A stretch of DNA of 24,455 bases from the IMG/VR virus record IMGVR_UViG_3300034190_000036, positions 1 to 24,455 of that record, one strand, 5' to 3'. Source of the DNA: a virus. Positions 3,526 through 23,218 of the stretch are shown piece after piece. A model generated the notes under the pieces. The model was given only the letters and a program-made list of their open reading frames with translations, searched no databases and was not told the origin of the DNA. The position numbers and the translations under genes are program-made. Position 1 is the stretch's first letter, and every line of letters starts with the position of its first letter.

Positions 3526-3710
3526 AGCCAGTTCCGTTCCACAAGCTGTCACCTAAGATGAAAAATATCCGCATGAACCAGTGGATTAAAACTTACATTG
3601 GGAAGGGTTTGAGCTTGGAGGAAGCGCAATTTGCGGCTCGCTGGCGCGCCGGCCATTGGAAGCTGAGTGCGCGCATGGAAAAGATCATGGATGACTTGGG
3701 CGAATTGTGA
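3522..3710 (+). CDS. small hypothetical protein after terL, 62 aa
   Basis: This is a basic, helical protein (MKPVPFHKLSPKMKNIRM...) with no recognised family. The ATGA overlap with terL shows coupled translation. The pattern GLSLEEAQFAARWRAGHW suggests a short helix-turn-helix-like fold, which is speculative. Its position directly after terL suggests a packaging or early-assembly role, but nothing in the sequence proves it. Confidence 0.75.
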   Translation: MKPVPFHKLSPKMKNIRMNQWIKTYIGKGLSLEEAQFAARWRAGHWKLSARMEKIMDDLGEL

Positions 3711-5599: not shown

Positions 5600-6219
5600 T
5601 GGCAATCACAACTTACGCAGAGCTAAAGTCTAGCATAGCCAACTGGCTGAACCGCGATGATCTTACGTCGGTCATTCCTGATTTTATCAGCTTGACTGAA
5701 GCTGGCATTAACCGTGACTTACGGCATTACAAGATGGTTAACCGCGTCGATGCTACGCTTGATAGCCGTTATGTACAGGTTCCGGCTGATTGGCTTGAAA
5801 CTTTGCGTTTTAGCTTGACCACTGATGGAACACGCCCGCTAGAGATGGCGAGCCTCGACGATATGATTAAGTATCGCCAGAACAACTCAAATGCCAGCGG
5901 CGTGCCTAAATTTTACTCTCACGCTGGCGAGAGCATTGAGGTGTTTCCAACGCCAGATGGTGAGTACGGTATGCAGCTTATGTATTATCAGTCTATTCCT
6001 GACTTGACTGATGCGAATACTTACAACTGGTTACTGCAAGACTCGCCTGACGTTTACTTGTATGGCGCTCTTGTTCAGGCCGCACCATACTTAAATGATG
6101 ACGCTAGAGTGCAAACATGGGCGGCGTTGTATTCGTCAGCCATGCAGTCTTTGCAAAAAGCCTCAGACGACACACGATTTGCTGGTTCTGGCCTTAGAAT
6201 GCGTGTGACTAGCTATTAG
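5599..6219 (+). CDS. head-to-tail adaptor protein (SU10-type), 206 aa
   Basis: It begins MAITTYAELKSSIANWLNRDD and continues VIPDFISLTEAGINRDLRH, the typical opening of the phage SU10 adaptor family. The middle holds VQVPADWLETLRF and SHAGESIEVFPTPDG, also usual for it. The C-terminal half is helical and rich in Tyr/Ala (DVYLYGALVQAAPYLND). Adaptors of this type form a ring below the portal and connect it to the nozzle and fibres. The length is normal. The start overlaps the previous stop in TAATG. The match to the SU10-type portal further downstream supports the call. Confidence 0.85.
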   Translation: MAITTYAELKSSIANWLNRDDLTSVIPDFISLTEAGINRDLRHYKMVNRVDATLDSRYVQVPADWLETLRFSLTTDGTRPLEMASLDDMIKYRQNNSNASGVPKFYSHAGESIEVFPTPDGEYGMQLMYYQSIPDLTDANTYNWLLQDSPDVYLYGALVQAAPYLNDDARVQTWAALYSSAMQSLQKASDDTRFAGSGLRMRVTSY

Positions 6220-7962: not shown

Positions 7963-9420
7963 ATGCGTTTGATCGGCAATGTAGAGAAAGACGCTCAGGT
8001 AAGGGCGGTGGCTTCTGGTGCTTTGCCCAGCGGTGATACTGTTATTGTGAACAGCGATGGGACTGTGAGTGTTGTAGGTGGGTCAAGTGCTAGTCAAACC
8101 TTGGGTTCTGCCGTTGACTTTGAAACAGGAACAACAGAGTTTACACAAATTGCGTATGATGCAGCAAACGATAAGGTTGTAATAACTTTTCAAGAAGGCG
8201 GAAGAGGTCAAGCAATCGTCGGAACCGTCAGCGGCACGTCCATATCGTTTGGAACGCCCGTTATTTGGGACTCAGGTTCCCAGACACAGGTAATTGCGCC
8301 AATATCATATGATGCTGCTTCTGAAAAATTATTAATTGCTTATAGAAACCCAAATGCTGCCGGTGGGGGATATGCAAGAGTCGGTACTGTTAGCGGCACG
8401 TCCATATCCTTTGGAACTGCCGCAGCGTTTGAAAGTGCCAGCGTTTATCCCAATGCTTCTGTCTACGACTCAGGCAGCGGGAAAGTAATTATTACTTATC
8501 GAAAAGCAACTGACAGCTATAGGGGGTACGCCGTTACGGCTACAATCAGCGGGACATCTGTCAGTTTTGGGACGCCTGTAAAATTTAGTAGCGGTAACTC
8601 AGGAATTTATACGTCGATGGCGTATGATGCGACGAGCAACAAAACAGTAATAGTTTGGACAGACAGTGATTACCTCACTCAATTACGGTATCGTGTGGCT
8701 ACAGTTAGCGGAACATCTATAAGTTACGGAACAGTTGGGAATGTGCATACGTTTTCTGCTTCTCCGACGCATTCTGCTGTGACATTTGACGATGTTAATA
8801 ACAAATTTGTTGCTGCTTTTAGAGACCTTGACAATAGCAATTACGGGTCGGTGTGTCTTGGTACTATTAGTGGAACGGATATGGTTTGGGACGCCACGCC
8901 TACAGTGTTCAACTCTGGAAATTCTGAGTATATGAAGATGACTTTTGACAGTAACGCTGGAAAGGTTGTTATTTTCTTCAGAGATGGTTCTGACGGCGAT
9001 GCAAGCAAACTTGTTGTAGGAGAGGTTTCGGGGTCTGCTATAAGTTTTGGGTCGCTAGTGGAAGTAGGCACTAGAGCTTTTGAAACATCATTGGCTTTTG
9101 ACTCCACAAGCAATGTTGTAGTTATAGCCTATAGAGACCTAGATGACGGCAACGATGGAACGTCTAACGTGTTCCAAAACGCCTACACCTCTACCAACCT
9201 CACCGCCGAGAACTTTCTTGGCTTCGCTGCGCACACATACGCTGACACGCAGAGTGCCTTGGTCAACTCGACCTGCACCGTGGACCGCAATCAGACGAGT
9301 TTAACTGCGGGTCAGACTTACTATGTTCAAACTGATGGCTCTCTAGGCACAACGGCGGCTGATCCGTCTGTCGTGGCTGGCACTGCCATCTCCTCTACTG
9401 AAATCATCGTGAAAGGTTAA
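7963..9420 (+). CDS. propeller-type receptor-binding protein A, 485 aa
   Basis: This is the first of three paralogs. N-terminal cap: residues 1-40 (VASGALPSGDTVIVNSDGTVSVV). Residues about 46-404 hold seven imperfect repeats of about 50 aa built on [YF]DxxxxKVVIxYR...VGTVSGTSISFGTPV. Seven such beta repeats are best read as a seven-bladed propeller. The C-terminal cap (405-485) has TSTNLTAENFLGF and GQTYYVQTDGSLGTTAADPSVVAGTAIS, a module I associate with marine phage fibres. It is the most divergent of the three: repeats 4 and 5 lose part of the consensus. AAGGAGAGCC precedes ATG 7963. The role as a host-binding protein is inferred from position, repeat structure and variability. Confidence 0.7.
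   Translation: MRLIGNVEKDAQVRAVASGALPSGDTVIVNSDGTVSVVGGSSASQTLGSAVDFETGTTEFTQIAYDAANDKVVITFQEGGRGQAIVGTVSGTSISFGTPVIWDSGSQTQVIAPISYDAASEKLLIAYRNPNAAGGGYARVGTVSGTSISFGTAAAFESASVYPNASVYDSGSGKVIITYRKATDSYRGYAVTATISGTSVSFGTPVKFSSGNSGIYTSMAYDATSNKTVIVWTDSDYLTQLRYRVATVSGTSISYGTVGNVHTFSASPTHSAVTFDDVNNKFVAAFRDLDNSNYGSVCLGTISGTDMVWDATPTVFNSGNSEYMKMTFDSNAGKVVIFFRDGSDGDASKLVVGEVSGSAISFGSLVEVGTRAFETSLAFDSTSNVVVIAYRDLDDGNDGTSNVFQNAYTSTNLTAENFLGFAAHTYADTQSALVNSTCTVDRNQTSLTAGQTYYVQTDGSLGTTAADPSVVAGTAISSTEIIVKG
8098..9174 (+). repeat. seven protein-level repeats of propeller A
   Basis: Seven copies of a roughly 50-aa unit are visible in translation; each contains a [FY]Dxxx(x)K/VVVI strand and, in most copies, a GTxSGTSISFG strand. 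At the DNA level they are diverged. Sampled lines are AT-rich (21 of 60 G+C at 8281-8340), unlike the flanking caps (34 of 60 at both 7981-8040 and 9181-9240). Confidence 0.65.
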
Positions 9421-9424
9421 ACTG

Positions 9425-9688
9425 ATGAAGACCATCGTTGAAACATCCAGCGGCTTGAGCAAGTACCTTCTTGCTGATGACGTGACTATTACTGCTACTG
9501 CAGAGAGCATCACTGTAGGTGATCCTGCACAGTTCATCATTGGTGACTTGAACAGCACCACAGTGACCGTCACTGACAACGTGACCAACTCCCCTGCGGA
9601 TTGGTCTGGCAACAAGTATTTCTTCGACGGTACGACTTGGACGTTGAACCCTGATTGGGTAGACCCAACACTAGACGACGAGGAATAA
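9425..9688 (+). CDS. small conserved-looking fibre-region protein, 87 aa
   Basis: It begins MKTIVETSSGLSKYLLADDV and continues with VGDPAQFIIGDLNSTTVTV and a tryptophan-rich C-terminus (NKYFFDGTTWTLNPDWVDP). I have the impression of similar small proteins near fibre genes of marine phages but know no proven function. Its place between propeller genes A and B, with 4-base gaps on both sides, suggests it works with them, for example as a tip or an assembly factor; that is inference. Its acidic tail DPTLDDEE is unlike the neighbours. Confidence 0.65.
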   Translation: MKTIVETSSGLSKYLLADDVTITATAESITVGDPAQFIIGDLNSTTVTVTDNVTNSPADWSGNKYFFDGTTWTLNPDWVDPTLDDEE

Positions 9689-9692
9689 TCAT

Positions 9693-11153
9693 ATGCGCAC
9701 CATTGGTACACCCAGCACGCAAGCACGGAAGCTGAACGCCATTGCCAGTGGTGCGTTGCCCAATGGTGATCCTGTTATCGTTAATGCTGACGGGACGGTG
9801 AGTGCGGCGTCTGAGACAAGTGTTAGCCAAGCATACGGAACTGCGGTTGTTTTTGAGGCGGGTGCGCCCAATGTTGTTTCATCAACATTTGACAGCAGCA
9901 GCAACAAGGTTGTCATAGCTTACGCTGACGCAGGGAACTCTAACTATTGCACTGCGGTTGTTGGCACTGTTGATCCATCTGACAACTCAATTACCTTTGG
10001 ATCACCTGCCGTTGCATCATCTAATTACGCTGAGTTTCTTGGCGTTACGTTTGACAGTAATAGCAACAAAGTTGTCATATGTTTTAGTGATGCAAGCAAT
10101 TCAAATCACGGCAAGGCGGTCGTCGGCACCGTCAGCGGCGACACTATTAGCTTCGGCACTGAGGTTGTTTTTGAGGCAAATACAACAGCCGACATGGCGG
10201 CCACATTTGATAGCAGCGAAAATAAAGTTGTTATTGCGTACAAAGACAGCGCAAATTCAAATAAGGGGACGGCAATAGTCGGGACGGTAAGCGGCACGTC
10301 TATTAGTTTTGGGACTGCTGTAGTGTTCGAGCAAGGTTCAACAATACAAATTGGAGCCACTTTTGACACCAGCAACAACAAAGTCGTAATTGTCTATGAT
10401 GACCTTACAAATTCTAATTATGGCACCGCTGTTGTCGGCACTGTAAGCGGTACGGCTATCAGCTTTGGCACTCCTGTTGTTTATGAGTCGGCATTGTCTT
10501 ACGCCAACACTGCTGTTTTTGACTCAACCAATAATAAAATTGTTGTTATTTATAGAGACGGTGGAAATTCCTTTTACGCAACTTCGGTGGTTGGTACCGT
10601 CAGCGGCGACACTATTAGCTTCGGCACTCCTGTAGTTGTTTTTGCTGCAAGCAATATTGTAACAAGCACTTTCGACAGCGCTGGTGGCAAGGTAATTGCG
10701 TTTTATAGAGACTTCGCTACTCCAAGCGATGCCGCCATTAAAGTTGGCACCGTTAGTGGCACTTCTATCAGCTTTGGCTCTGAGGTTATCGTGGGTACCT
10801 CTGGCGGCAACATCTACGTTTCCGCTACATTTGATAGCAACTCAAATAAAGTTGTTGTCTCATATAGTGATGCAAGTAACTCAAACGCTGGGACTTCCGT
10901 AGTATTCCAACCAGCCTACACCTCCACCAACCTAACCTCCGAAAACTACATCGGCCTATCCAGCAACGGCTACCCTGACACTGCTGGGGCCACCATTGAT
11001 GTGCAAGGTGCGATAAACGACAGGCAATCAGGTTTGACTGCGGGTCAGGCATACTACGTCCAGACGGATGGCACACTAACCACAACCGCTGGAGACCCAA
11101 GTGTCTTCGCTGGCACAGCCATATCGGCAACCAAGATGATCGTGAAAGGCTAG
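9693..11153 (+). CDS. propeller-type receptor-binding protein B, 486 aa
   Basis: This is the second paralog and the most regular. The N-cap (1-40) contains IASGALPNGDPVIVNADGTVS. Seven repeats (about 46-405) each carry FDSxxNKVVIxYxDxxNSxxGTAVVGTVSGxxISFGT. The C-cap (406-486) carries TNLTSENYIGL, SGLTAGQAYYVQTDGTLTTT and AGDPSVFAGTAISATKMIVKG. The first half-strand (AYGTAVVFEAG) and the last (AGTSVVFQPA) could close the ring, as propellers usually do. Two repeats share a 33-nt perfect match (10128-10160 and 10596-10628). The propeller fold is inferred from repeat number and pattern. Host receptor binding is the likely role. Confidence 0.72.
   Translation: MRTIGTPSTQARKLNAIASGALPNGDPVIVNADGTVSAASETSVSQAYGTAVVFEAGAPNVVSSTFDSSSNKVVIAYADAGNSNYCTAVVGTVDPSDNSITFGSPAVASSNYAEFLGVTFDSNSNKVVICFSDASNSNHGKAVVGTVSGDTISFGTEVVFEANTTADMAATFDSSENKVVIAYKDSANSNKGTAIVGTVSGTSISFGTAVVFEQGSTIQIGATFDTSNNKVVIVYDDLTNSNYGTAVVGTVSGTAISFGTPVVYESALSYANTAVFDSTNNKIVVIYRDGGNSFYATSVVGTVSGDTISFGTPVVVFAASNIVTSTFDSAGGKVIAFYRDFATPSDAAIKVGTVSGTSISFGSEVIVGTSGGNIYVSATFDSNSNKVVVSYSDASNSNAGTSVVFQPAYTSTNLTSENYIGLSSNGYPDTAGATIDVQGAINDRQSGLTAGQAYYVQTDGTLTTTAGDPSVFAGTAISATKMIVKG
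10128..10160 (+). repeat. 33-nt perfect direct repeat, copy 1
   Basis: It encodes the VSGDTISFGT strand of propeller B and is identical to the copy at 10596-10628, while the flanking blade sequence differs. Confidence 0.85.
10596..10628 (+). repeat. 33-nt perfect direct repeat, copy 2
   Basis: Identical to 10128-10160, with its start 468 nt downstream in the same reading frame. It is a possible site for unequal recombination or gene conversion between blades. Confidence 0.85.
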
Positions 11154-11156
11154 ACC

Positions 11157-12629
11157 ATGAGAACTATCCCAGAGTTACAAGAGGGTACGCATAGGGCCAA
11201 GGCTTCTGGTACTCTGCCGAATGGTAAGCCTGTTATCGTTAATGCTGACGGCACTGTTAGTGTTGTTAATTTGGCGTCTTCAAGCCAGTCCGTTGGAAGC
11301 TCTACTGCTTTTTCCGTATCTTCAATTTCTTGGGTTTCGTCCACCTTTGATAGCAGCAGCAATAAGGTTGTTATTGCTTATCAAGATGACGGATTTCCAA
11401 GAGGCTACGCAGTCGTTGGTACTGTCAGCGGCGCGTCCATATCCTTCGGAACTCCTGTAATGTTCAACAGCGGAGCTTCAACGTATATTGCTTGTACCTT
11501 TGACAGCAACTCTAATAAAGTTGTTATAGCTTATCGCCAGTCTAATACAGCAGGCTATTCTGTAGTCGGAACCGTTAGCGGGACTAGCATTAGCTTTGGC
11601 AGCACAATTACCTTTAACAGCACAAGTGGATGTCTATTTGTGGGGCTGACTTTTGACAGCAGTTCCAACAAGGCAGTTGCTGTTTGGCGGGACCAAGAGC
11701 AAGGCAATGACGGATATGCCGCTGTCGGGACTGTAAGTGGAACATCAATTAGCTGGGGAACTCGTGTAAGGTTTCAAACTGGGTCTAGCTCTACAAATTT
11801 CCTCTCCGCTGCGTTTGATAGCAATGCAAACAAAGTTGTTATTGCATATAGTAACGCCTCTAATTCTAGTTATGGTACGGCAATTGTCGGAACCGTTAGC
11901 GGGACTAGCATCAGCTTTGGCTCTGCAACCGTGTATGAAAGCTCAACTGTCTATGACACTTCTTGTGTCTATGACGCAAGCGCCCAAAAAATTGTTATTG
12001 CGTATGTTGACGCTGGTAATAGCTCAAAAGGCACAGCAGTGGTCGGAACCGTCAGCGGCACTAGCATCAGCTTTGGAACACCTATTTATATCGGGGGCGG
12101 CTCTGGCGTTACAATTGGGGACACAGGCCCAACGGGTATAGCCTATGATGCTAACGCCCAAAAAGTTATTATTGCATATGAGGACGAAAGCAATAATTCG
12201 TATGGCACAGTCGTTTCGGGAACTGTAAGCGGAACCTCAATAAGTTTTGAAACTCCACTTGTTTTTGCAAACAACAGTTCTGGAGTTGTATATACAAGCG
12301 CAACTTACGATAGCTTTAATCAGAAGGTAGCGGTTTCCTATGTAAACTCAAACGATAGTGATGGTTATGGCGCAGTATTTTCGCCAGCGGCACAGGCCAC
12401 CAACCTCACCTCCGAGAACTACATTGGCATGTCTCAGGGCGGCTCTGTAGCAGACGGTAGCAGCGCCACGGTAGACATCATCGGCTCACTCAGCACAAAC
12501 CAGTCTGGCCTCACCGCAGGGCAGCAATATTACGTCCAGACAGACGGGACGATAGGAGAGACCGCTGACGATCCGAGTGTCTTTGCAGGGACAGCAATAT
12601 CTGCTACAAGTTTAGTAGTAAAAACATAA
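11157..12629 (+). CDS. propeller-type receptor-binding protein C, 490 aa
   Basis: This is the third paralog. The N-cap has KASGTLPNGKPVIVNADGTVSVV. Seven repeats lie at about residues 45-408, nearly all with VGTVSGTSISFG. The C-cap (409-490) has TNLTSENYIGM and QQYYVQTDGTIGETADDPSVFAGTAIS. Loops between blades differ from A and B (for example QEQGNDGYAAV and GGGSGVTIGDTGP), as expected of surfaces that contact different receptors. It starts 3 bases after the stop of B with AAAGG upstream, so B and C are probably made together. It could be a third receptor-binding subunit or a redundant copy. Confidence 0.7.
   Translation: MRTIPELQEGTHRAKASGTLPNGKPVIVNADGTVSVVNLASSSQSVGSSTAFSVSSISWVSSTFDSSSNKVVIAYQDDGFPRGYAVVGTVSGASISFGTPVMFNSGASTYIACTFDSNSNKVVIAYRQSNTAGYSVVGTVSGTSISFGSTITFNSTSGCLFVGLTFDSSSNKAVAVWRDQEQGNDGYAAVGTVSGTSISWGTRVRFQTGSSSTNFLSAAFDSNANKVVIAYSNASNSSYGTAIVGTVSGTSISFGSATVYESSTVYDTSCVYDASAQKIVIAYVDAGNSSKGTAVVGTVSGTSISFGTPIYIGGGSGVTIGDTGPTGIAYDANAQKVIIAYEDESNNSYGTVVSGTVSGTSISFETPLVFANNSSGVVYTSATYDSFNQKVAVSYVNSNDSDGYGAVFSPAAQATNLTSENYIGMSQGGSVADGSSATVDIIGSLSTNQSGLTAGQQYYVQTDGTIGETADDPSVFAGTAISATSLVVKT
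11289..12380 (+). repeat. seven protein-level repeats of propeller C
   Basis: Seven roughly 50-aa units with [FY]DSxxxKVVIAYxx and GTVSGTSISFG. Two of the strands share a long near-identical DNA stretch (about 11565-11600 and 11885-11920, one mismatch seen). Confidence 0.65.
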
Positions 12630-12638
12630 GGCGAAGCC

Positions 12639-14117
12639 ATGCCGTTAATTCCTCTCAACATCCCAGCAGGCCAATACAGAAACGGCACTGAGTTTCAGTC
12701 TCAGGGCCGCTGGCGTGACGCAGACCTTGTTCGGTGGCATGAGGGGGCGTTGCGCCCAGTGGGCGGATGGCGTCAGCGCGGAAGCGTGAACATCGACGGC
12801 GTTGCTCGTTCAATGGTTGCGTGGGAAGACAATTCAAGCAACAGGCGCATAGCTTTTGGAACGCACAACAAGCTCTACGCTATGGGGTCAGGCGATACGG
12901 TCAGCGACATTACTCCAGCCGGGTTCACGTCTGGCAGAGTGGACGCCACGGCGTTTACTGGGTACGGCGCGAAAACCTTTGGCGGTGGCCTTTACGGGCT
13001 TCCGGTAGAGGATACCAACAACATCCTCAAAGCAACCACATGGTCGTTGGAAAATTGGGGTGAGTACCTTTTGGGATGCACAGCCGACGACGGCAAGATT
13101 TACCAGTGGCAGCTCGACAATTCTACTCCAGCCGCCGTTTTGTCAAATGCGCCAGTAGACTGCTCCGCAATGATGGTAACGGAAGAGCGCTTTGTGTTTG
13201 CTCTGGGTGCTGGAGGAAACCCCAGAAACGTCTCGTGGTCCGACCGTGAAGACAACAACACATGGACACCCGCAGCCACAAACGAAGCTGGTGACATCGA
13301 AATACAAACAAACGGTGTAATATTAAAAGGTCTCCGCACACGCGGTCAGGCGTTGATACTTACCGACCAAGACGCCCACACAGCAACATATAGTGGCCCG
13401 CCATTTGTGTACGGTTTCCAAAGAGTTGGAACATCATGCGGGTTGATTGCTGCAAACGCTGCCGCGTCAATAGATCAGGGCGTTATTTGGATGGGGCAGC
13501 GCTCGTTCTTTACTTACAGCGGCGGTGCGGTCCAAGCGCTGCAATGCGACGTTGCCGATTATGTGTTTAGTGACATGAACAGCGACCAGAAGTCCAAAGT
13601 ACACGCCGTTGTCAACAGCCGCTTCAACGAAATTTGGTGGTTTTACCCCAGCGGATCAAGCATCGAGTGCGATAGGTATGTTGCGTATGACTACGCAGAA
13701 AACGTATGGATGACAGGCACTATTGACAGAACTGCCGGTGTGGATCGCGGCGTATTCCGCCAACCTCTTTGGATTTCTGCAGAGGGAATTCTATACGAGC
13801 AGGAAATAGGATTTAGTTACAGCGGAGTTTCGCCATTCGCAGAAACAGGGCCAATCTTGCTTGGAGCCGGGGATCAAGTGATGAGTGTGAAGGGTTTAAT
13901 ACCTGACGAAAAAACACTCGGGGATGTCAGTGCTTCTTTCAAAACTCGCTTTTACCCAACGGGCGAGGAAAAGACGCACGGCCCTTACAGCATGGAAAAT
14001 CCAACGAGCCTAAGATTTACGGGCCGACAGGTGAGAATGCGCGTCACGGGAGACGCCTCCTCAAGCTGGCGTGTCGGCATTATGCGGCTTGACGCGGTAG
14101 CTGGCGGTCGCAGATGA
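12639..14117 (+). CDS. tail nozzle/hub protein (P22 gp10 or T7 gp12-like role), 492 aa
   Basis: The N-terminus (LNIPAGQYRNGTEFQSQGRW, DADLVRWHEGALRPVGGWRQ) is typical of short-tailed phage proteins annotated as packaged-DNA stabilisation or tail tubular/nozzle proteins. The rest is beta-rich (WSDREDNNTWTPA, VIWMGQRSFFTYSG, RFNEIWWFYPSGSS) and reads like a propeller-containing tube protein. Such proteins close or extend the tail channel below the adaptor. The length is in the expected range. The start follows AAGGCGAAGCC. It overlaps the next gene by 4 bases (ATGA). The role is inferred from family resemblance and position, not from a catalytic motif. Confidence 0.65.
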   Translation: MPLIPLNIPAGQYRNGTEFQSQGRWRDADLVRWHEGALRPVGGWRQRGSVNIDGVARSMVAWEDNSSNRRIAFGTHNKLYAMGSGDTVSDITPAGFTSGRVDATAFTGYGAKTFGGGLYGLPVEDTNNILKATTWSLENWGEYLLGCTADDGKIYQWQLDNSTPAAVLSNAPVDCSAMMVTEERFVFALGAGGNPRNVSWSDREDNNTWTPAATNEAGDIEIQTNGVILKGLRTRGQALILTDQDAHTATYSGPPFVYGFQRVGTSCGLIAANAAASIDQGVIWMGQRSFFTYSGGAVQALQCDVADYVFSDMNSDQKSKVHAVVNSRFNEIWWFYPSGSSIECDRYVAYDYAENVWMTGTIDRTAGVDRGVFRQPLWISAEGILYEQEIGFSYSGVSPFAETGPILLGAGDQVMSVKGLIPDEKTLGDVSASFKTRFYPTGEEKTHGPYSMENPTSLRFTGRQVRMRVTGDASSSWRVGIMRLDAVAGGRR

Positions 14118-14764
14118 GCAGAATTGTTCCACCCCTCGCGCCAGACATTCGGCAATGGGCTGAGAATTTGCGCATATATCTTAGCCGCGCTTTAGACCAG
14201 ATGAGCTTCAAGGAGACCTATTCGTCTGCATCCGAAAATGGCGTCTTGCTGTGGGATAACGTAAACGGCTATCCTGTGGTCAGCAAAAACGGCGAGTGGC
14301 GTCAGGTTGTGCTGGAAGATGGCCAGTATGCTGGCGGCGTTACAACGGATCAGACTGCTGCGTCTACAAACACAGCGTACGCTTTGACGTACACATCAAG
14401 CATTGCCGATGGCATTACAAACGGCACACCAGCCTCCCGCATAGTTTTTGAAGAGGCTGGCGAGTACATGATTAGCTTTTCGGCTCAAATTTCATCTACG
14501 TCCAGTTCAACTGTAAACTTTTGGTTTTGGCCCCGCGTCAACGGCGTTGACGTTGCTGGGTCAACGATGAAGAACGCACTGCATCAAAACGGGGCGACGC
14601 TTGTTGTATCTCGGTCTGTTATCTTTAACTTTGCCGCCGGAGATTACTTGGAAGCCATGTGGGCTGTTGACAGCACCAGCGGATTTCTTGATGCAGCTGC
14701 GGCAACGGCGTTTGCACCAGCAGCGCCGTCCTCAACCATTGCGATAACGAGGCTGCACGGATGA
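14114..14764 (+). CDS. virion protein with a C-terminal TNF/C1q-like jelly-roll, 216 aa
   Basis: Residues 1-40 are a helical lead (PDIRQWAENLRIYLSRALDQM). The C-terminal part (about 80-216) has the strand pattern RIVFEEAGEYMISFSAQ, VNFWFWPRVNGVDVAGSTM, SRSVIFNFAAGDYLEAMWAV and a final TIAITRLHG. That matches the C1q/TNF-like jelly-roll seen in many phage fibre and capsid-decoration proteins. It is probably a trimeric external protein. It is translationally coupled to its neighbours by ATGA overlaps on both sides. Confidence 0.65.
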   Translation: MSRIVPPLAPDIRQWAENLRIYLSRALDQMSFKETYSSASENGVLLWDNVNGYPVVSKNGEWRQVVLEDGQYAGGVTTDQTAASTNTAYALTYTSSIADGITNGTPASRIVFEEAGEYMISFSAQISSTSSSTVNFWFWPRVNGVDVAGSTMKNALHQNGATLVVSRSVIFNFAAGDYLEAMWAVDSTSGFLDAAAATAFAPAAPSSTIAITRLHG

Positions 14765-15123
14765 ATGAAGAACTAGCACGCTGCAAGCCTTGGATTGAGG
14801 CAGCTTTAAGCTACAGCGGTGGCACGCATGACTTCGATGATATAGTAGCTGGCTTGCAAAAAGGTACGCTGCAACTGTGGCCTACGCCAAGGGGGTGCAT
14901 AGTCACTGAAATAGTGGTATATCCGAAGAAACGCGTGTTAAACGTATTTCTAGGTGGCGGTGAACTGGACCAGATTTTAGATATGCACGATGATGTGATA
15001 GAATGGGGCAAGGCTCAAGGTTGCAGCGCTCTAACAATGTCCGGCAGGTTTGGCTGGAAGAAACCATTGAAGGCGCACGGGTGGGAAGCTCAGCACGCCT
15101 CATATGTTAAGGAGTTTGATTAA
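14761..15123 (+). CDS. GNAT acetyltransferase-fold phage protein, 120 aa
   Basis: The order of blocks fits a small GNAT-fold phage family: an N-terminal helix with SGGTHDFDDIVAGLQKG, then LQLWPTPRGCIVTEIVVYP, a central VFLGGGELDQI and a C-terminal GRFGWKKPLKAHGWEAQ. GNAT enzymes usually move an acetyl group from acetyl-CoA to an amine; the classical acyl-CoA loop is weak here, so activity is not assured. It lies between tail and ejection genes, overlapping the previous gene by 4 bases and the next by 1. It may modify a virion protein during assembly or be a structural descendant. The family is fairly sure, the role unknown. Confidence 0.7.
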   Translation: MNEELARCKPWIEAALSYSGGTHDFDDIVAGLQKGTLQLWPTPRGCIVTEIVVYPKKRVLNVFLGGGELDQILDMHDDVIEWGKAQGCSALTMSGRFGWKKPLKAHGWEAQHASYVKEFD

Positions 15124-16142
15124 TGTCAGGCGGAAAAGGTGGATCAACATCCTCAACGGTCACAGTACCAAAGTACATTGAGGATGCGGCAAAGGCTAAT
15201 TTAGCCAAGGCCGATGAGATTTCAAAAATTGGCTACACGCCATATTACGGTCCAGACGTTGCCGCGTTTAATCAAATGCAGCAAGCGGGCTTTCAAAACA
15301 CAGCCGGGATGGCTGATGCGTTTGGTCTAGCTGGCGGCGGAACTGGCATGGAGGGTATGCCCATGCCGACCACATACGCTGGTGGGGTTCAAGGCTATTC
15401 TTCTGCGCCAATGTTTGAGCAGTCTATGGCTGAGCTTGAAGCTCGCCGCCCCGGCCAATACGCTGCAATCAATGCACCGTTTATTGACCCCGTAACTGGC
15501 GCACAGCCTGCGGCCCCATACGGAACTGGCGCTGCGATGCCAAAATACTCGTTCAGAAATATGCTCGGGGATAGTTATACGGCTGGCACAGATTACACTG
15601 GCTCTGGTGGATCGGACAATACTGGGGCGATGACTGTGGATCAGCAGAATGCCTCTTTTGGCATTTCCCCCTCTGGCACAATATCAGCCGCTTTGCCGGG
15701 TGGCGTAAATGACCGCAATTTGGGTCGCCCTGTGAACCAATTTATCGCAGGGGCGACAAGCCCGGCCCAGCAGTCAGGTGCGCCAACAAGCAGCTCGAGA
15801 CCTGTTGGCAGGGACTCGGCTGGCACAAGCGACACTGGCGGCTGCGTAGTGGCGACACACGCAGTCAACTCAGGCGCGTTTACCCCTGCAATGAAGCGCG
15901 AGGCCGTTGTGTGGTGCATGAAGGCCCTGCACGGCAAATGGTGGGGCGAGGCTGTGCGGCGTGGCTATCGCTACTGCGGCAACAAGAAGATTGAGCAAGG
16001 CAAGGCGCGTGAGCATTACGGTGAGTTTCGCCGATATGTTGATTTTGCCAGCGGCAAAAAGCGCACATTGCGTGGCGCATTTACGTTTACATTCCGAACT
16101 GCACAGTTTTTTGCAGTAGGCTTAATTAAGAGGGACGCATAA
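15123..16142 (+). CDS. candidate ejection protein with a Cys-led C-terminal module, 339 aa
   Basis: The first 30 residues (GGKGGSTSSTVTVPKYIEDAAKANLAKAD) are the short Gly/Ser/Thr lead typical of internal virion proteins. Residues 60-238 are a Gly/Ala/Pro-rich, probably disordered linker. From C241 a separate module begins (CVVATHAVNSGAFTPAM), followed by WCMKALHGKWWGEAVRRGYRY, an HYGEFRRY strand and a hydrophobic end (TFTFRTAQFFAVGLI). The next protein also ends in a Cys-led module, so the two may share an assembly or membrane step. Its start overlaps the previous stop (TAATG). The ejection role is inferred from composition and position. Confidence 0.65.
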   Translation: MSGGKGGSTSSTVTVPKYIEDAAKANLAKADEISKIGYTPYYGPDVAAFNQMQQAGFQNTAGMADAFGLAGGGTGMEGMPMPTTYAGGVQGYSSAPMFEQSMAELEARRPGQYAAINAPFIDPVTGAQPAAPYGTGAAMPKYSFRNMLGDSYTAGTDYTGSGGSDNTGAMTVDQQNASFGISPSGTISAALPGGVNDRNLGRPVNQFIAGATSPAQQSGAPTSSSRPVGRDSAGTSDTGGCVVATHAVNSGAFTPAMKREAVVWCMKALHGKWWGEAVRRGYRYCGNKKIEQGKAREHYGEFRRYVDFASGKKRTLRGAFTFTFRTAQFFAVGLIKRDA

Positions 16143-16143
16143 G

Positions 16144-17580
16144 ATGGGTAGTTCAGCAACAGGTGGCAAGGGTTCTGGGGCTGGCGGCGGAAGGCCAGCC
16201 GTTCCGACCCTGTCAACCAACGGCGACGGCCAATTTGGCCCCAGCGGCTACGCGCCACTTCCGCAGCCGGGCGGTTTCAACGTCAACCAAGCGGCAGCAG
16301 GCGGACTGCAGAGCGCCATGCAGGGTACGCAGGAAGCAATGCGTTATCAACCCATGGCAGTTAGGCCCACTGATTATTCAGCGGCCCAAGCGGGAAGCCA
16401 AGGCTACGACGCGGCTCAGGCAGGAAGCCGAGGCTATGAAGCAGCTCAAGCCGCTCAACAAGCTGCCTTAGCTGCCGATCAAGTACGCGCAGGGCAAATT
16501 GCTGGCACTGACCTTGGCGCATATACAAACCCATATGAAAGCCAAGTCGTTCAGCAGTCTTTAGGCGACCTTGAGCGCAGCCGTTTAATGCAGCAAAACC
16601 AGCTTGGCGCGCAAGCATCCTCTGCTGGAGCTTTTGGCGGATCACGCCAAGGAATTGCTGAGGCAGAAACAAATCGTGCATTTGCGGATCAAGCAGCCCG
16701 TACAGCTTCCGGCTTGCGTCAATCTGGATACCAGCAAGCGCAGCAGCTTGCCGGGCAAGATATTGCCAGTCAAATGCAAGCGGCGCTGGCCAATCAAGGC
16801 GCAAATTTACAAGCCGGGACCACAACCGCACAACTTGGGCAGCAAGTGAACCTATCGAACCAAGCCGCCCTTAACCAAGCTGGGCAATTTGGCGCGGCAG
16901 CGGCTAACCAAGCTGAGTTGGCAAACCAAGCCGCCCTTAACCAAGCTAGGCAATTTGGTGCGGCGGCGGCTAACCAAGCAGCGTTTGGAAATCAATCAGC
17001 ATTAAACCAGCAGCGTCAATTTGGTGCAACGCAGGGCATGACAGCTCAACAGTTAAATCAAGGCGCAGGCTTGCAGGGCGCTCAATTCCGTTTAGGTGCT
17101 GCGAACCAGATGGGCGGTTTAGGGCAGCAAGCATTTAACACATCTCAGGCCATTCAGCAGCAGCAAATGCAGCAAGGCTTAATGCAGCAGGGATTGCAGC
17201 AGCAGCTCATTGACGCAGCACGCGGGCAATATGCGGGCTATACTGGCGCGCCACAGCAATCGCTTGGATTGCCACTTGCCGCGTTGGGCGCAGCTCCAGC
17301 TCCCGAAAGTACAACTAACACTATGAAGCCCGGCTTGTTTAATTATTTGCAGCTTGGCGCTCAAGCAATGTGCTGGGTTGCCCGCGAGGTTTATGGCGAG
17401 GATGATCCCAAGTGGCTGCAATTCCGCGAGTGGGTTATCGGTTATTCACCAAACTGGTTCTACAAAGCGTACAGCAAATATGGCGAAGGTGTGGCAAAGG
17501 TTGTTGCAAAAGTGCCAGCCCTTAAACTTGTCATTCGCCCGTTTATGGACGCTAAGCGCAAGGCAATTGGATTTAAGTAA
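16144..17580 (+). CDS. Ala/Gln/Gly-rich internal virion protein, probable DNA ejection, 478 aa
   Basis: Residues 78-101 hold AAQAGSxGYx repeats. Residues 128-190 contain the block TNPYESQVVQQSLGDLERSR, then GAFGGSRQGIAEAETNRAFADQAAR, familiar from phage internal/DNA-transfer proteins. Residues 239-297 hold three 22-aa repeats (NQAALNQAxQFGAAAANQA) encoded by 66-bp tandem units. After a Gln-rich stretch (330-355) the protein ends in a Cys-led module from C410 (CWVAREVYGEDDPKWLQFREW, then SPNWFYKAYSKYGE and LKLVIRPFMD) that resembles the CFI-box-type C-terminal domain. The low complexity and helix content fit a protein that unfolds and passes through the tail. It overlaps the lysozyme gene by one base. 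Confidence 0.7.
   Translation: MGSSATGGKGSGAGGGRPAVPTLSTNGDGQFGPSGYAPLPQPGGFNVNQAAAGGLQSAMQGTQEAMRYQPMAVRPTDYSAAQAGSQGYDAAQAGSRGYEAAQAAQQAALAADQVRAGQIAGTDLGAYTNPYESQVVQQSLGDLERSRLMQQNQLGAQASSAGAFGGSRQGIAEAETNRAFADQAARTASGLRQSGYQQAQQLAGQDIASQMQAALANQGANLQAGTTTAQLGQQVNLSNQAALNQAGQFGAAAANQAELANQAALNQARQFGAAAANQAAFGNQSALNQQRQFGATQGMTAQQLNQGAGLQGAQFRLGAANQMGGLGQQAFNTSQAIQQQQMQQGLMQQGLQQQLIDAARGQYAGYTGAPQQSLGLPLAALGAAPAPESTTNTMKPGLFNYLQLGAQAMCWVAREVYGEDDPKWLQFREWVIGYSPNWFYKAYSKYGEGVAKVVAKVPALKLVIRPFMDAKRKAIGFK
16858..17037 (+). repeat. 66-bp tandem repeat, about 2.7 copies
   Basis: Units begin at 16858, 16924 and 16990 with AACCAAGCCGCCCTTAACCA in the first two and a diverged form in the third. 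They encode NQAALNQAGQFGAAAANQAE-like repeats inside the 478-aa protein. The first two are nearly identical, which points to a recent duplication. Confidence 0.8.
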
Positions 17581-19163
17581 TGCCACAAGGTTTTATCCCA
17601 CTTTCAACGCAAATGGACTTCCTCTGGAATGAAGTTCAAGGCAAAGAGAAATCTGGCTTCGGCAAGTTTCTTTCGGCCAATGCGTCTTCGCCAGAAGACT
17701 ATGCAACTTTGTGGGATAAATACTATGAGCGCTCCGGCGGCGCTGGTGACGAAAAGGCTCGCAACTACGCGAGCAGCGTTTACGCAGCAATGGCCGATGG
17801 CACATCCAACGAGGCTCCAATATCGCCAAACGCCAAGTTTGCTTATGGCTACCTCACGCAAAGGGGTCTCACTCCGCAGCAAGCCGCAGGCATCACTGGC
17901 CGCCTGATGGCTGAGAGCTATGAGGATATGAACCCAGACGCACGCAACACTCTTGCCGGCGGTCAGGGTACATACGGCATTGCACAGTGGCGGGGCAGCC
18001 GGATGAATGATCTTGCAAACTTTGCGGGCGTTGACGTGTCGGACATTACATCACTGCCAGCAACCACTGCCAGCGGCGGTTTACTTTCAAGCAATCAAGG
18101 GGGTCAAGACATGGCCATTTCTAATAAGCCTCCATACATGATGGGTGGCGAGCAAACCTACAACGCGCCAAACATGGGGCAGCAAGGCGGCCTGAGCGGG
18201 CTTCTGTCAACCCTCAAGGACAAGGCAACTGCCGTTAATCCTGAGACTGGGCTGACAGGTTTGCAGACTTTTGCGGCTGCGCTTGATCCGTTGATCATGC
18301 CAGAGCTGCGCGGCGGTGGTGAGGCTATTCGGAAGTCTGGCGCGCAACGTGCTGCGGCTGACCGGAGAAATAAGACCGTTGAGATGCTGCGGGCTAGAGG
18401 TCGTGCTGATTTGGCTGACATGGTTGAGCGCGGGATGATTTCCCCGGCTGATGCGGCTAGTCAGATGTTGGCTGCGCCGAAGGATGACAGGACTGCTGGG
18501 ATCAAGGAATACCAGCAAGCTGTTGCCCAAGGATTCAAGGGTACGTTTTTGGATTATAAGACTGCACTTCAGAAAGCCGGAGCTACTAGCGTGACTGTTG
18601 GCGGCGAAGGTGCAGAGGCATTTGACAAGGAATTTGGAAAACTTGACGCACAATCCTTGGCTGATGTCGCAAAGGTCGGCGCAACGGCCTCAAGAAGCCT
18701 TGCGCAAATTGGTCGTCTTGAGGCATTGCTAAGCAACATTGACAGCGGCATGGGCGCGAGCATTCAGCAATTCGCAGGTAATTTCGGCATCCAGACTGAT
18801 GGTCTTGATGACATCCAAGCGGCGTCAGCGCTAATAAACGCCCTCGTGCCTGCGCAACGCCCGCCGGGGTCCGGCCCAATGTCCGACGCAGACTTAGAGC
18901 TGTTCAAGCAGTCTCTGCCTCGCATAATCAACTCTCCCGGCGGCAACCAAATTATTATCAACACTATGCGCGGGCTTGCCGAGTATGATGCAGAGGGTGC
19001 TAGAATTGTGCAGAGGTTGCGTAGAAAGGAAATAACGCAAGCGGACGCATTTGAGCTTCTAAACAGTCGCGCAGACCCGTTTGCAGCTTTCAAAGCTCCA
19101 ACTGGGGCAGCACCCACTGGCGGCTTAACTCGCCAAGATGCTTTAGACATTCTGGGCGGATAA
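17580..19163 (+). CDS. virion-associated protein with permuted tail-lysozyme domain, 527 aa
   Basis: Residues 85-160 carry FAYGYLTQRGLTPQQAAGI, then MAES (E112 is the likely catalytic Glu) and YGIAQWRGSRMNDL (132-145), the first half of the Phage_lysozyme2 (tail lysozyme) fold. Its usual second half (QxxFxxxELxG ... YERP ... RxxYA) is missing after residue 160. It is found instead at residues 11-70: QMDFLWNEVQGKEKSGF, YYERSGGAGDEKARNYA. The enzyme would cut cell-wall peptidoglycan during DNA entry. Residues 180-527 are helical with no known motif (ELRGGGEAIRKSGAQR..., ending GGLTRQDALDILGG) and probably join the ejection complex. The start is fixed by the TAATG overlap. Confidence 0.75.
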   Translation: MPQGFIPLSTQMDFLWNEVQGKEKSGFGKFLSANASSPEDYATLWDKYYERSGGAGDEKARNYASSVYAAMADGTSNEAPISPNAKFAYGYLTQRGLTPQQAAGITGRLMAESYEDMNPDARNTLAGGQGTYGIAQWRGSRMNDLANFAGVDVSDITSLPATTASGGLLSSNQGGQDMAISNKPPYMMGGEQTYNAPNMGQQGGLSGLLSTLKDKATAVNPETGLTGLQTFAAALDPLIMPELRGGGEAIRKSGAQRAAADRRNKTVEMLRARGRADLADMVERGMISPADAASQMLAAPKDDRTAGIKEYQQAVAQGFKGTFLDYKTALQKAGATSVTVGGEGAEAFDKEFGKLDAQSLADVAKVGATASRSLAQIGRLEALLSNIDSGMGASIQQFAGNFGIQTDGLDDIQAASALINALVPAQRPPGSGPMSDADLELFKQSLPRIINSPGGNQIIINTMRGLAEYDAEGARIVQRLRRKEITQADAFELLNSRADPFAAFKAPTGAAPTGGLTRQDALDILGG

Positions 19164-19173
19164 GGAGCCAATC

Positions 19174-21120
19174 ATGGCAGAGACAATGACATCGGCGGAA
19201 TCCTCTCAAATTCTTCAGGCCATCAAGGTTTTGGAAAAACTAGAGGCTGACGGTACAATCACAGCGAGTGAGCAGGCCGCCTTAGATCGCGCCCGAGAGA
19301 AGCGGAAGCCAGCCAAGCAAGCCGAGCTTGAAACTCGCGCCACATACGGCGGCTTTACAGCTGGCGCGATGATGAACCTGAACGACGAAGCTCGCGGCGC
19401 ATACAACTTTGCCAATGAGCTTTTGAAGTCGGGCGACATGGAGGGCGCAAAGGCGGCTTACGCGAAGTATCGCGACCTTCAACGCCAGATTGACGAAGCA
19501 TTGCAGCTTCTAGCCCCCGAGGAATACGCTAGAGGGCAGACTTCTGGTGCGGTTACAAGCATGGTCGCCCCCGGTGGCGTGGCTTTCAAGGCTGGGTCGA
19601 AATTTCCAGTTTTGGGTCAGATAGCTACGTCCGGCGGCGTAGGCGCTACTGCCACAGCTCTGCCGCAATTTGGCGGCGGCGAAGGCGGCTTCACTGAAAG
19701 AGTTTCAGAAATTGACCCGTTGACCACTGCGGTCGGCGGCACGATAGGCATGGCTTCGCCCGTCGCTGGTCGAGTGGCTGGCGCAGTGACACGCGGCGCT
19801 CAAGACTTAACTCGTCGCGGTGTGGGCGGCTACAGCGGCGCTGCATCACGCAGGGTGGCCGGCCAGCTCTCTGGCCCACAAGCAACTGGTCAAGACATTC
19901 AGTCATACCTCAGCAGCCTTGGGCCGGAAGCTATGCTGGCCGACATACCGGGCCGCCCCCGCACGATGGCTCAAGGTTTGGCAACCATACCCGGTCAAGG
20001 TCAAGAAGTTTTGACCCGTGAGATAGGCGAGCGCGGCGCGGGCGCAGGTCAGCGCGTTGAAGATGTGATGACGCAACGTATTGACCAACCCAATGTTGGC
20101 TTTCAGGAAACTCTGGCTCAGCAAGAGCGCAAGTCTGGCGTGCTTGGCCCAATGTATGAGGCTGCCACTCAAAGCGATAAAATGTTTGACGTAAACACAC
20201 TGCGCAGCGCATTGGTCTTGTATGGCAAAGATGCTTCCCGCTCAGTTCGCTCTCAAATGAATGCTGTTCTGAAAGACTTAGGCACAAAAGGCGACGTTAG
20301 CGCTGAAAAGCTGCACAACGTCCGGTCAGCTCTCAGTGACGTAATATTCAGAGAGGGTGGCAGCGTTGCTGTAAATCTCAAGCCATTCCTGCACAAAATT
20401 GACGACAAGCTGGACGAGCTACCAAGTTACGCAGCGGCTCGATCAGGCTACTCAGAGGCTTCCGCAATTCAGCGAGCCGTTGAGGACGGCGAAAAGGTGT
20501 TTACTGGCGGAAAAACCTCTGCACTCTCTCCCCGTGAACTTGAGGCGAAACTCGCCGGCATGTCTGACATGGAACGCGCAGCCTTCCAGAAGGGCGCACG
20601 GGATTACATTGGCTCACTTATGGGGACATCACGCAACGATGCCGCCGCCGCTTGGGGTGAGTTTGGCAAGAGCTGGAACGCTGAGAAGCTGAGAATGCTT
20701 GTTGGCGACGAAAGCGCAGCGGCCATCACCCAGCGCTTGCTGGCTGAAAAAGAGTTTGCCAAGACGTCATCGGACGTGCTGGCCGGATCGCAGACCGGGT
20801 TCCGCACAGAAGCGCAGGCTGCATTGCGTGACCTTCGTGACCCTGAGAGCTTCAATGCTCCGAGCGTTGGCCAGCGCGTTAAGGCTGCCATAGCTGCCCC
20901 GGTCAACAAGATCATGGATGAAATCATGTATGGCACTGGTGACATTCGCCGTGAAATTGGCGAGATACTTACCTTGCAAGGTGCAGAGCGCGACGCAGTG
21001 GTGCGTCAACTTTTGGGTGAGGCTTCACGCCTGCAAGACAAAACAAAGCTGCAAAGGCTTGCAGATATGTTGACACAGGTTGGCTTGATGGCATCCACGC
21101 CAGCAATCACAAACGAATAA
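19174..21120 (+). CDS. large helical internal virion/ejection protein, 648 aa
   Basis: It is almost entirely helical and rich in Ala, Gly, Arg and Glu. An N-terminal segment (1-60) looks like a coiled coil. Residues about 123-172 are Gly/Ala-rich and mildly hydrophobic (SGAVTSMVAPGGVAFKAG, TSGGVGATATALPQFGGG) and could enter a membrane. The C-terminal half has repeated amphipathic helices (KLHNVRSALSDVIFREGG, RDAVVRQLLGEASRLQDK). No enzymatic motif is visible. It is the largest member of a run of low-complexity genes between nozzle and portal, so I infer a P22 gp16 or T7 gp16-like ejection role. AAGGAGCC precedes ATG 19174. Confidence 0.6.
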   Translation: MAETMTSAESSQILQAIKVLEKLEADGTITASEQAALDRAREKRKPAKQAELETRATYGGFTAGAMMNLNDEARGAYNFANELLKSGDMEGAKAAYAKYRDLQRQIDEALQLLAPEEYARGQTSGAVTSMVAPGGVAFKAGSKFPVLGQIATSGGVGATATALPQFGGGEGGFTERVSEIDPLTTAVGGTIGMASPVAGRVAGAVTRGAQDLTRRGVGGYSGAASRRVAGQLSGPQATGQDIQSYLSSLGPEAMLADIPGRPRTMAQGLATIPGQGQEVLTREIGERGAGAGQRVEDVMTQRIDQPNVGFQETLAQQERKSGVLGPMYEAATQSDKMFDVNTLRSALVLYGKDASRSVRSQMNAVLKDLGTKGDVSAEKLHNVRSALSDVIFREGGSVAVNLKPFLHKIDDKLDELPSYAAARSGYSEASAIQRAVEDGEKVFTGGKTSALSPRELEAKLAGMSDMERAAFQKGARDYIGSLMGTSRNDAAAAWGEFGKSWNAEKLRMLVGDESAAAITQRLLAEKEFAKTSSDVLAGSQTGFRTEAQAALRDLRDPESFNAPSVGQRVKAAIAAPVNKIMDEIMYGTGDIRREIGEILTLQGAERDAVVRQLLGEASRLQDKTKLQRLADMLTQVGLMASTPAITNE

Positions 21121-21133
21121 AGGGCAGCGGCAC

Positions 21134-23218
21134 ATGGAACTTAAACCAAAATCACGCAGCGAAATCGAAGGCATTGTGCAGGACGCAATCTCTGATGCGG
21201 TGGACTTTGTTGAGGGCGAAATCAGCGAGGACCGCATCAAGGCGCAGCGCTACTATGACGGTGAGGTTGACCTTGGCTACGAGGATGGCCGAAGCAAGGT
21301 AGTTGCCACAAAAGTACGAGATACTGTACGTTCTGTGAAGCCAAGCCTGATGCGCATATTCCTCAGCACAGCCAAGCCAGTTGAGTTTGTGCCGCGCGGA
21401 CCAGAGGACGTGGCGATGGCTGAACAAGCCACTGAGTTCATGCACCATGAGTTTACCCGGCTAAACGGATACCGCGTTCTGAATGACGCCTTCCAAGATG
21501 CGCTGGTCAAAAAACAAGGCATCGTGAAGGCATACTGGATGACATATCCAGAGGCCGAGATTTACACGTTTTCTGACCTGTCCGACGACGAATACACATA
21601 TTTAATCGAAGACGACAGCGTGACTGTGCTGGAGCATACGGTTGAAATGTCCATTGAGATTGATCCAATGGGTATGGAAATTGAGATGCCAGTCCACAGC
21701 GTTAAGCTGAGCCGCCAGAAAGATATGGGCGAGCTGTGCATTGAGAGCGTTCCGCCGGAAGAGTTTTTCATCAACCGTGACGCACGCTCATTAACCGACG
21801 CTTATATCGTTGCTCACCGCACCGACATGCGCGCTGGCGATTTGATCGCAATGGGCTTTGACCCAGACGTAGTGCTGGACTTGGATAGCTTTGAAAGCGG
21901 CTCTGATATGACAGAGGCCGAGATGTATGAGCGCCGTGGTTACGACATGGACACCTCAGACGAGGACATTGAAGACCCATCCATGCGCAATGTTGCCGTG
22001 ACTGAAGCGTATATGCGCATTGACGTTGACGGCACTGGCATACCAGTTTTGCACAAATTAATCTGTGGCGGCACGTCATACGAATTGCTGGACTTTGAGC
22101 CATGCGATGAGTTGCCGTTTGCCAAGTTTGAGGTCGATCCAGAGCCACACGCGTTCTATGGTCGTTCACTGGCCGAGATTGTTATGGATGACCAAGACGC
22201 AGCAACCTCCGTTCTGCGCTCTATTCTTGATAACGTGGCGATGACGAACAACCCTCGCCTTGGCATTGTTGAGGGTGCGGTCAATATTGACGACGTTCTC
22301 AACAACGAGATCGGCGCAATTGTGCGTATGCGCGCGCCCGGCTCAGTCCAAGAATTGTCCGTTCCATTTACTGCCGGGCAGACACTTGGCGCGCTGACAT
22401 ATCTAGACGGCCTCGTAGAGAGCAAGACAGGCGTTTCTAGGGCGTCAATGGGCCTAGACCCTGATGCAATGCAGTCAACTACAAAGGCCGCTGTGCAGGC
22501 TACTGTGCAGGCCGCAGCTGGTCAGGTTGAGGTTATGGTTCGCAATCTTGCCGATGGTATGCGTGATCTATTTGGCATCATGCTGCGCTTGATGAGCAAA
22601 AATGTTGACGAAGAGCAAATGATGCGGATGAATGGCATGTTTGTGCCTGTTGATCCTCGCGTTTGGAATCAGTCAATGGATGTTGCCATTAACGTGGGCC
22701 TCGGCACTGGCCGCGAGGAAGAGAAAGCAATGGCGTTGAGCCAAGCGCTGCAAATGCAGATGACTGTTTACCAAAATTACGGCCCAAGTAACGGTCTTGT
22801 CAGCCTCACCAACATTCGCAACGCGCTGGCCGACCAGCTGGCGATTACAGGCATAAGAAACGCTGACCGCTATTTTGCGCCAATGACGCAAGAGATTGAG
22901 CAGCAAATGCTGCAAATGCAGCAACAGGCACAGGCCCAGCAAGGCCAAGCCTCTGATCCAAACGCTGCGTTCTTGCAGGCTGAGCAAATGAAGGCTCAAA
23001 CTAAGGCTCAGACAGACATGGCCAAGCTGCAACTTGAAATGCAGAAGGCAGCGGCCAACGACGATCTCAAGCGGGATCAAATGGCGCAAGACTTGTTGGT
23101 AAACGCCGCCAAGATTTATGGCGAGTACGGCACGTCGGTTGACGTGGCCCGCATCCAAGCTGAGCAAGACAAAGCCCGCATGATTGGCGGAATGGCTCAA
23201 GGGATGCCGCAGCAATGA
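21134..23218 (+). CDS. portal protein (SU10/P22-type), 694 aa
   Basis: The portal is the dodecameric gate for packaging. The N-terminus has DRIKAQRYYDGEVDLGYEDGR, then SKVVATKVRDTVRSVKPSLMRIF, the conserved opening of the SU10-type portal family. The core has KQGIVKAYW, ESVPPEEFFINRDARSLTDA and AFYGRSLAEIVMDDQDAATS, and near residues 420-470 the block TYLDGLVESKTGVSRASMGL. The C-terminal 115 residues (from 579) are Gln-rich and predicted coiled coil (QEIEQQMLQMQQQAQAQQGQ), matching the barrel end of long portals. The length is normal. It ends in an ATGA overlap. Its place far from terL is unusual for podoviruses. Confidence 0.9.
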   Translation: MELKPKSRSEIEGIVQDAISDAVDFVEGEISEDRIKAQRYYDGEVDLGYEDGRSKVVATKVRDTVRSVKPSLMRIFLSTAKPVEFVPRGPEDVAMAEQATEFMHHEFTRLNGYRVLNDAFQDALVKKQGIVKAYWMTYPEAEIYTFSDLSDDEYTYLIEDDSVTVLEHTVEMSIEIDPMGMEIEMPVHSVKLSRQKDMGELCIESVPPEEFFINRDARSLTDAYIVAHRTDMRAGDLIAMGFDPDVVLDLDSFESGSDMTEAEMYERRGYDMDTSDEDIEDPSMRNVAVTEAYMRIDVDGTGIPVLHKLICGGTSYELLDFEPCDELPFAKFEVDPEPHAFYGRSLAEIVMDDQDAATSVLRSILDNVAMTNNPRLGIVEGAVNIDDVLNNEIGAIVRMRAPGSVQELSVPFTAGQTLGALTYLDGLVESKTGVSRASMGLDPDAMQSTTKAAVQATVQAAAGQVEVMVRNLADGMRDLFGIMLRLMSKNVDEEQMMRMNGMFVPVDPRVWNQSMDVAINVGLGTGREEEKAMALSQALQMQMTVYQNYGPSNGLVSLTNIRNALADQLAITGIRNADRYFAPMTQEIEQQMLQMQQQAQAQQGQASDPNAAFLQAEQMKAQTKAQTDMAKLQLEMQKAAANDDLKRDQMAQDLLVNAAKIYGEYGTSVDVARIQAEQDKARMIGGMAQGMPQQ

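Follow-up and report, generated by a model that had tools for sequence, protein, structure and literature searches.

A probable natural circular permutation of a gp13-type lysozyme domain in an ejection-type protein of an SU10-like phage

Can the two halves of a phage lysozyme change places in the chain and still form one enzyme? The question is raised by a gene in IMG/VR record IMGVR_UViG_3300034190_000036, of which we analysed positions 1 to 24,455 (24,455 nucleotides, referred to as the window). The gene (17580-19163, + strand) encodes a 527-aa ejection-type protein in which the GxxQW and YER...RxxYA blocks of Phage_lysozyme2 are both present. Our answer is that this protein of an SU10-like phage is very probably headed by a natural permuted gp13-type lysozyme, which most likely cuts peptidoglycan during DNA delivery.

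Gene layout and genomic context

All features described here are on the + strand. The ATG of the gene shares bases with the preceding stop codon (TAATG), and there is an in-frame TAA at 17574-17576, directly 5' of the ATG, so that the start is firm on the upstream side. The second half of the Phage_lysozyme2 domain comes first, at residues 8-71 (17601-17792), and contains the motifs YERSGG and RNYA. A short linker of approximately residues 72-81 (17793-17822) follows, connecting what are the C- and N-terminal ends of the canonical domain. The first half bears AAGI..MAES and YGIAQWRGSR and spans residues 84-159 (17829-18056), with a match to positions 2-67 of the Pfam profile PF18013 (17829-18032, residues 84-151) and to positions 3-75 of an HMM built from canonical-order domains only. 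Within it, the codon at 17913-17915 specifies Glu112, which aligns with Glu45 of phi29 gp13, the suggested catalytic residue of that enzyme (PMC10394673). Profile scoring detected no second lysozyme half in the low-complexity linker after the domain (18057-18179). The C-terminal body (residues 201-525; 18180-19154) is common to proteins which have an SLT transglycosylase in place of the lysozyme, and residues 279-507 of it are common to one protein bearing a canonical lysozyme.

The window also encodes an SU10-type portal protein (21134-23218), an SU10-type adaptor protein (5599-6219), terminase genes and a scaffolding protein, and together these genes identify a short-tailed phage of the SU10-like kind. 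A cassette (14114-21120) that includes the lysozyme gene recurs in the viral contigs L134, L152 and L241, which are permuted, and in L079. Cassette comparison places in it both the Ala/Gln-rich upstream gene (16144-17580) and the downstream gene (19174-21120), which was assigned to phrog_5880. At its C-terminus the product of the upstream gene is extended by a segment (CWVAREVYG...FREWVIG...) that also occurs in L241 but not in L079 and L134.

Order of the two halves

We compared the 527-aa protein to PF18013 (Phage_lysozyme2, phi29 gp13 type), for which the curated cut-off is 28.2 bits. The whole protein scored 83.3 bits, with profile positions 75-140 preceding positions 2-67. Each half also exceeded the cut-off alone, with 35.0 bits for residues 1-77 (E = 1.9e-8) and 57.7 bits for residues 78-180 (E = 1.9e-15). 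The initial annotation was thus right that the second half is encoded before the first; its exact block limits gave way to residues 8-71 for the second half and approximately 82-159 for the first.

The canonical-only HMM has 144 positions and was derived from 15 canonical-order domains. In the native order the protein matched it in two segments that adjoin on the profile, first 75-141 and next 3-75, with 117.1 bits, so that all positions of the parent profile are present once, in rotated order, on a single chain. When the sequence was rotated we obtained one continuous match (3-141) with 125.9 bits. Other rotations of the domain gave lower scores of 101-106 bits, and the gain over the split match was only ~9 bits. 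For PF18013, too, a single uninterrupted match from N- to C-terminus is absent natively and arises only on rotation. The permuted proteins L134, L186, L197 and L214 behaved in the same way against the canonical-only HMM.

The break point was checked against Bacillus phage Moonbeam, where the domain is canonical. The stretch aligned with query residue 159 and the one aligned with query residue 8 overlap there by 3 nt, and therefore the two halves are contiguous in the canonical order; a cut just after SDITSLP, as originally proposed, is correctly placed. A complete lysozyme within residues 80-230, the arrangement set against this reading at the outset, was not found: residues 160-260 scored -1.3 bits and nothing lysozyme-like was detected past residue 160. 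A profile of the permuted family matched the phi29 gp13 crystal chain in reversed order, with query residues 76-151 aligned to chain positions 10-83 and query residues 33-70 to chain positions 120-157, the latter match being weak alone (7.4 bits).

Predicted structure

Structure prediction of the N-terminus had been suggested as a check. We modelled residues 1-160 with AlphaFold2, template-free and with 45 natural permuted sequences as input, and obtained a single compact domain with a pLDDT of 89.2 and a pTM of 0.88; pLDDT values below 50 occurred only at linker residues 76-78. A model from 18 near-identical sequences was of low quality (pLDDT 68). In the model Glu112 is located at the end of helix 99-113 and is followed by short strands, and a Glu at a helix end followed by short strands has likewise been described for gp13 and GH184 (PMC10394673).

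A Foldseek search against BFVD returned phage tail lysozymes and a relative of phi29 morphogenesis protein 1, over 76-87 columns or about half of the domain. Against the PDB neither model gave a significant match; a sequential aligner such as this has little power to recognise a permutant. The top fold match in BFVD, A0A6J5MAM7, is a protein of 737 aa aligned over 161 columns with an rmsd of 18.9, and it could be permuted or tandem.

The model also bears on a competing explanation, according to which the protein is the remnant of a tandem lysozyme whose halves complement each other between chains, in a domain-swapped oligomer, and not within one chain. Permuted proteins are known to arise when a domain is duplicated in tandem and then trimmed. 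The 161-column match with its high rmsd is what a tandem target might give, and ejection proteins such as those of T7 act as oligomers (PMC8954989). However, the monomer is predicted with confidence as one compact domain, the linker between the old termini has only 4-10 residues, and no tandem or three-half architecture was found among ~120 distinct proteins, so we consider complementation between chains improbable. The loss of the outer halves from a tandem domain, which the initial annotation had offered as an alternative, could have led in evolution to the same arrangement; a tandem intermediate was not found.

Taken together, the profile order, the abutting break, the continuous rotated match, the single-domain model and the conservation of the order in ~90 proteins support the original proposal that residues 1 to ~160 form a circularly permuted Phage_lysozyme2 domain.

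Distribution and conservation of the permuted form

In scans of IMG/VR the permuted order recurred in dozens of contigs, which come from a large number of independent metagenomes. A search for homologues in both orders, also suggested initially, yielded 90 non-identical proteins with the second half followed by the first, 31 canonical proteins and 0 tandem proteins; the 90:31 ratio depends on the queries used. Within the permuted family the identity to the window protein falls to ~32%. Across 45 sequences 17 positions are invariant, including Q11, E18, E50, R51, E112, G133, Q136, W137 and R141. Pairwise dN/dS was at most ~0.15 in both halves and, on these estimates, both are under purifying selection. 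Judged from its sequences, the permuted form represents a conserved group of predicted viral enzymes and not a fluke.

In all permuted proteins that include their N-terminus the domain starts at residue 6-13, whereas canonical domains start anywhere from residue 5 to residue 997. Some permuted domains head proteins of ~890-1090 residues with another body (phrog_11190, virion structural protein). The bodies of such proteins in L197-L215 resemble virion structural proteins of jumbo phages such as vB_PcaM_CBB at ~22% identity. We also built a tree from rotated together with canonical domains. All permuted sequences lay to one side of a single branch, whose support is modest (85/43); this is compatible with a single origin of the permuted form without proving it. 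Two irregular cases were noted. In L151 an apparent frameshift at 2980-3700 splits the permuted gene, due to either a sequencing error or a pseudogene. In L241 the second piece showed an extra overlap (profile 5-100), which we judged to be a spurious extension.

The conserved positions allow us to weigh a further explanation, namely that the domain is a lysozyme-derived module that binds peptidoglycan without catalysis. Gp13-type enzymes show no conserved Asp that could act in catalysis, and for want of functional data the family has not received a GH number (PMC10394673). Against this, the 45 diverged sequences all retain Glu112 as well as the GxAQW and ER motifs, and an SLT transglycosylase holds the same position in related proteins. 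We regard a non-catalytic module as quite improbable.

It is very improbable that residues 11-70 are an unrelated domain merely resembling a lysozyme second half. The second-half match is indeed weaker than that of the first half (35.0 compared to 57.7 bits with PF18013), but with the canonical-only HMM the second half scored 42.3 bits and the first 79.4 bits, and the best of ~900 scored shuffles per half reached only 10.9 bits for the second half and 6.3 bits for the first. Moreover, the second half passes the PF18013 cut-off alone, residues 11-70 supply exactly the missing profile positions, and the model shows a single domain. An assembly or annotation artefact, conceivable for a contig of an uncultivated virus, has a practically negligible probability given the same order in so many independent contigs and at such low identity.

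Comparison with known systems

The N-terminal domain of phi29 gp13 (PDB 3csq, 3csr, 3ct5) and the window protein are alike in the catalytic Glu, GxxQW, YER, RxxYA and helix content. They differ in that the halves are swapped in the window protein and the domain occupies the very first residues of a protein of the ejection type. Permuted lysozyme-like enzymes with joined old termini have been engineered from T4 lysozyme (e.g. PDB 1P5C); those are man-made, belong to another lysozyme family and have another break point (PMC2395249). In the open-access literature we found these engineered permutants only and no report of a natural permuted lysozyme. The window protein may thus be a natural example of a rearrangement that engineers have until now introduced artificially into a different lysozyme.

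In a search of 50,697 phage genomes no record was found to span the permuted junction and no named phage that was searched had the swapped order, and scans of GTDB genomes gave no permuted member. Apparent full-length permuted matches in Staphylococcus silviaviruses were rejected as over-extension through a stop codon; the domain there is canonical. For annotation this is a warning, as order-sensitive tools split such a domain into two hits or overlook its fold.

Related genes differ in their N-terminal modules. In Rhizobium phage RHph_I3_18 (QIG75013.1) the homologous C-terminal body is 38% identical over 242 columns and PF18013 is again in the N-terminal part, but in canonical order (residues 128-252). 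In the uncultivated viral proteins L079-L084 the C-terminal body is 57-59% identical and the gene neighbours are the same in L079, where they were compared; the N-terminal module, however, is an SLT transglycosylase (PF01464 in L079), which also matches phrog_342, a T7-type internal virion protein family. The permuted domain would thus be an evolutionarily stable natural permutant, whose place is taken in related genes by a domain in canonical order or one of unrelated fold. It offers a natural experiment on what chain order does to a virion enzyme as it folds, is unfolded mechanically and is ejected.

Proposed function

Order, conservation, selection and predicted fold are computed here, and from the domain swapping and the neighbour genes we infer the activity, the virion location and the use at entry. 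The C-terminal body carries no functional annotation. The old C- and N-termini would be joined through a linker of about 4-10 residues, with the new ends in the loop before the helix beginning TQMDFLW. The chain would refold as one lysozyme-like domain with Glu112 at a helix end in the active cleft, and this domain would head an internal virion protein of the ejection type in a short-tailed, SU10-like phage. Peptidoglycan glycan strands would be cut locally as the phage delivers its DNA, as is done by the N-terminal transglycosylase of T7 gp16 (residues 1-156; PMC8954989). Local cutting of peptidoglycan during DNA entry is the most likely role because a canonical lysozyme or an SLT transglycosylase is swapped into the same gene family, and swapping of functional domains among ejection proteins has been described (PMC8954989). 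T7 gp16 and the window protein share an N-terminal wall-cutting domain of ~160 residues (here by homology) and an extended region behind it. The T7 domain has an SLT-type fold in normal order, and no sequence homology to the window lysozyme domain was found.

We think it unlikely that the permutation was selected and is not neutral, in the sense that placing the old C-terminal lobe first, right at the beginning of the chain, alters the order of unfolding and refolding through portal and tail. The proposal of the initial annotation that permutation may help threading through the tail is speculative. If the permutation was selected, it would make a working lysozyme deliverable through a narrow channel.

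Other genes of the window

Two further regions were recorded. Three consecutive long paralogues (485, 486 and 490 aa, 41-52% identity) without a confident family match are encoded at 7963-12629. Between the terminase and adaptor genes, at 3869-5599, we observed a gene for a 576-aa protein with a weak but above-cut-off match to the ADP-ribosyltransferase domain of polyvalent proteins (PF18760).
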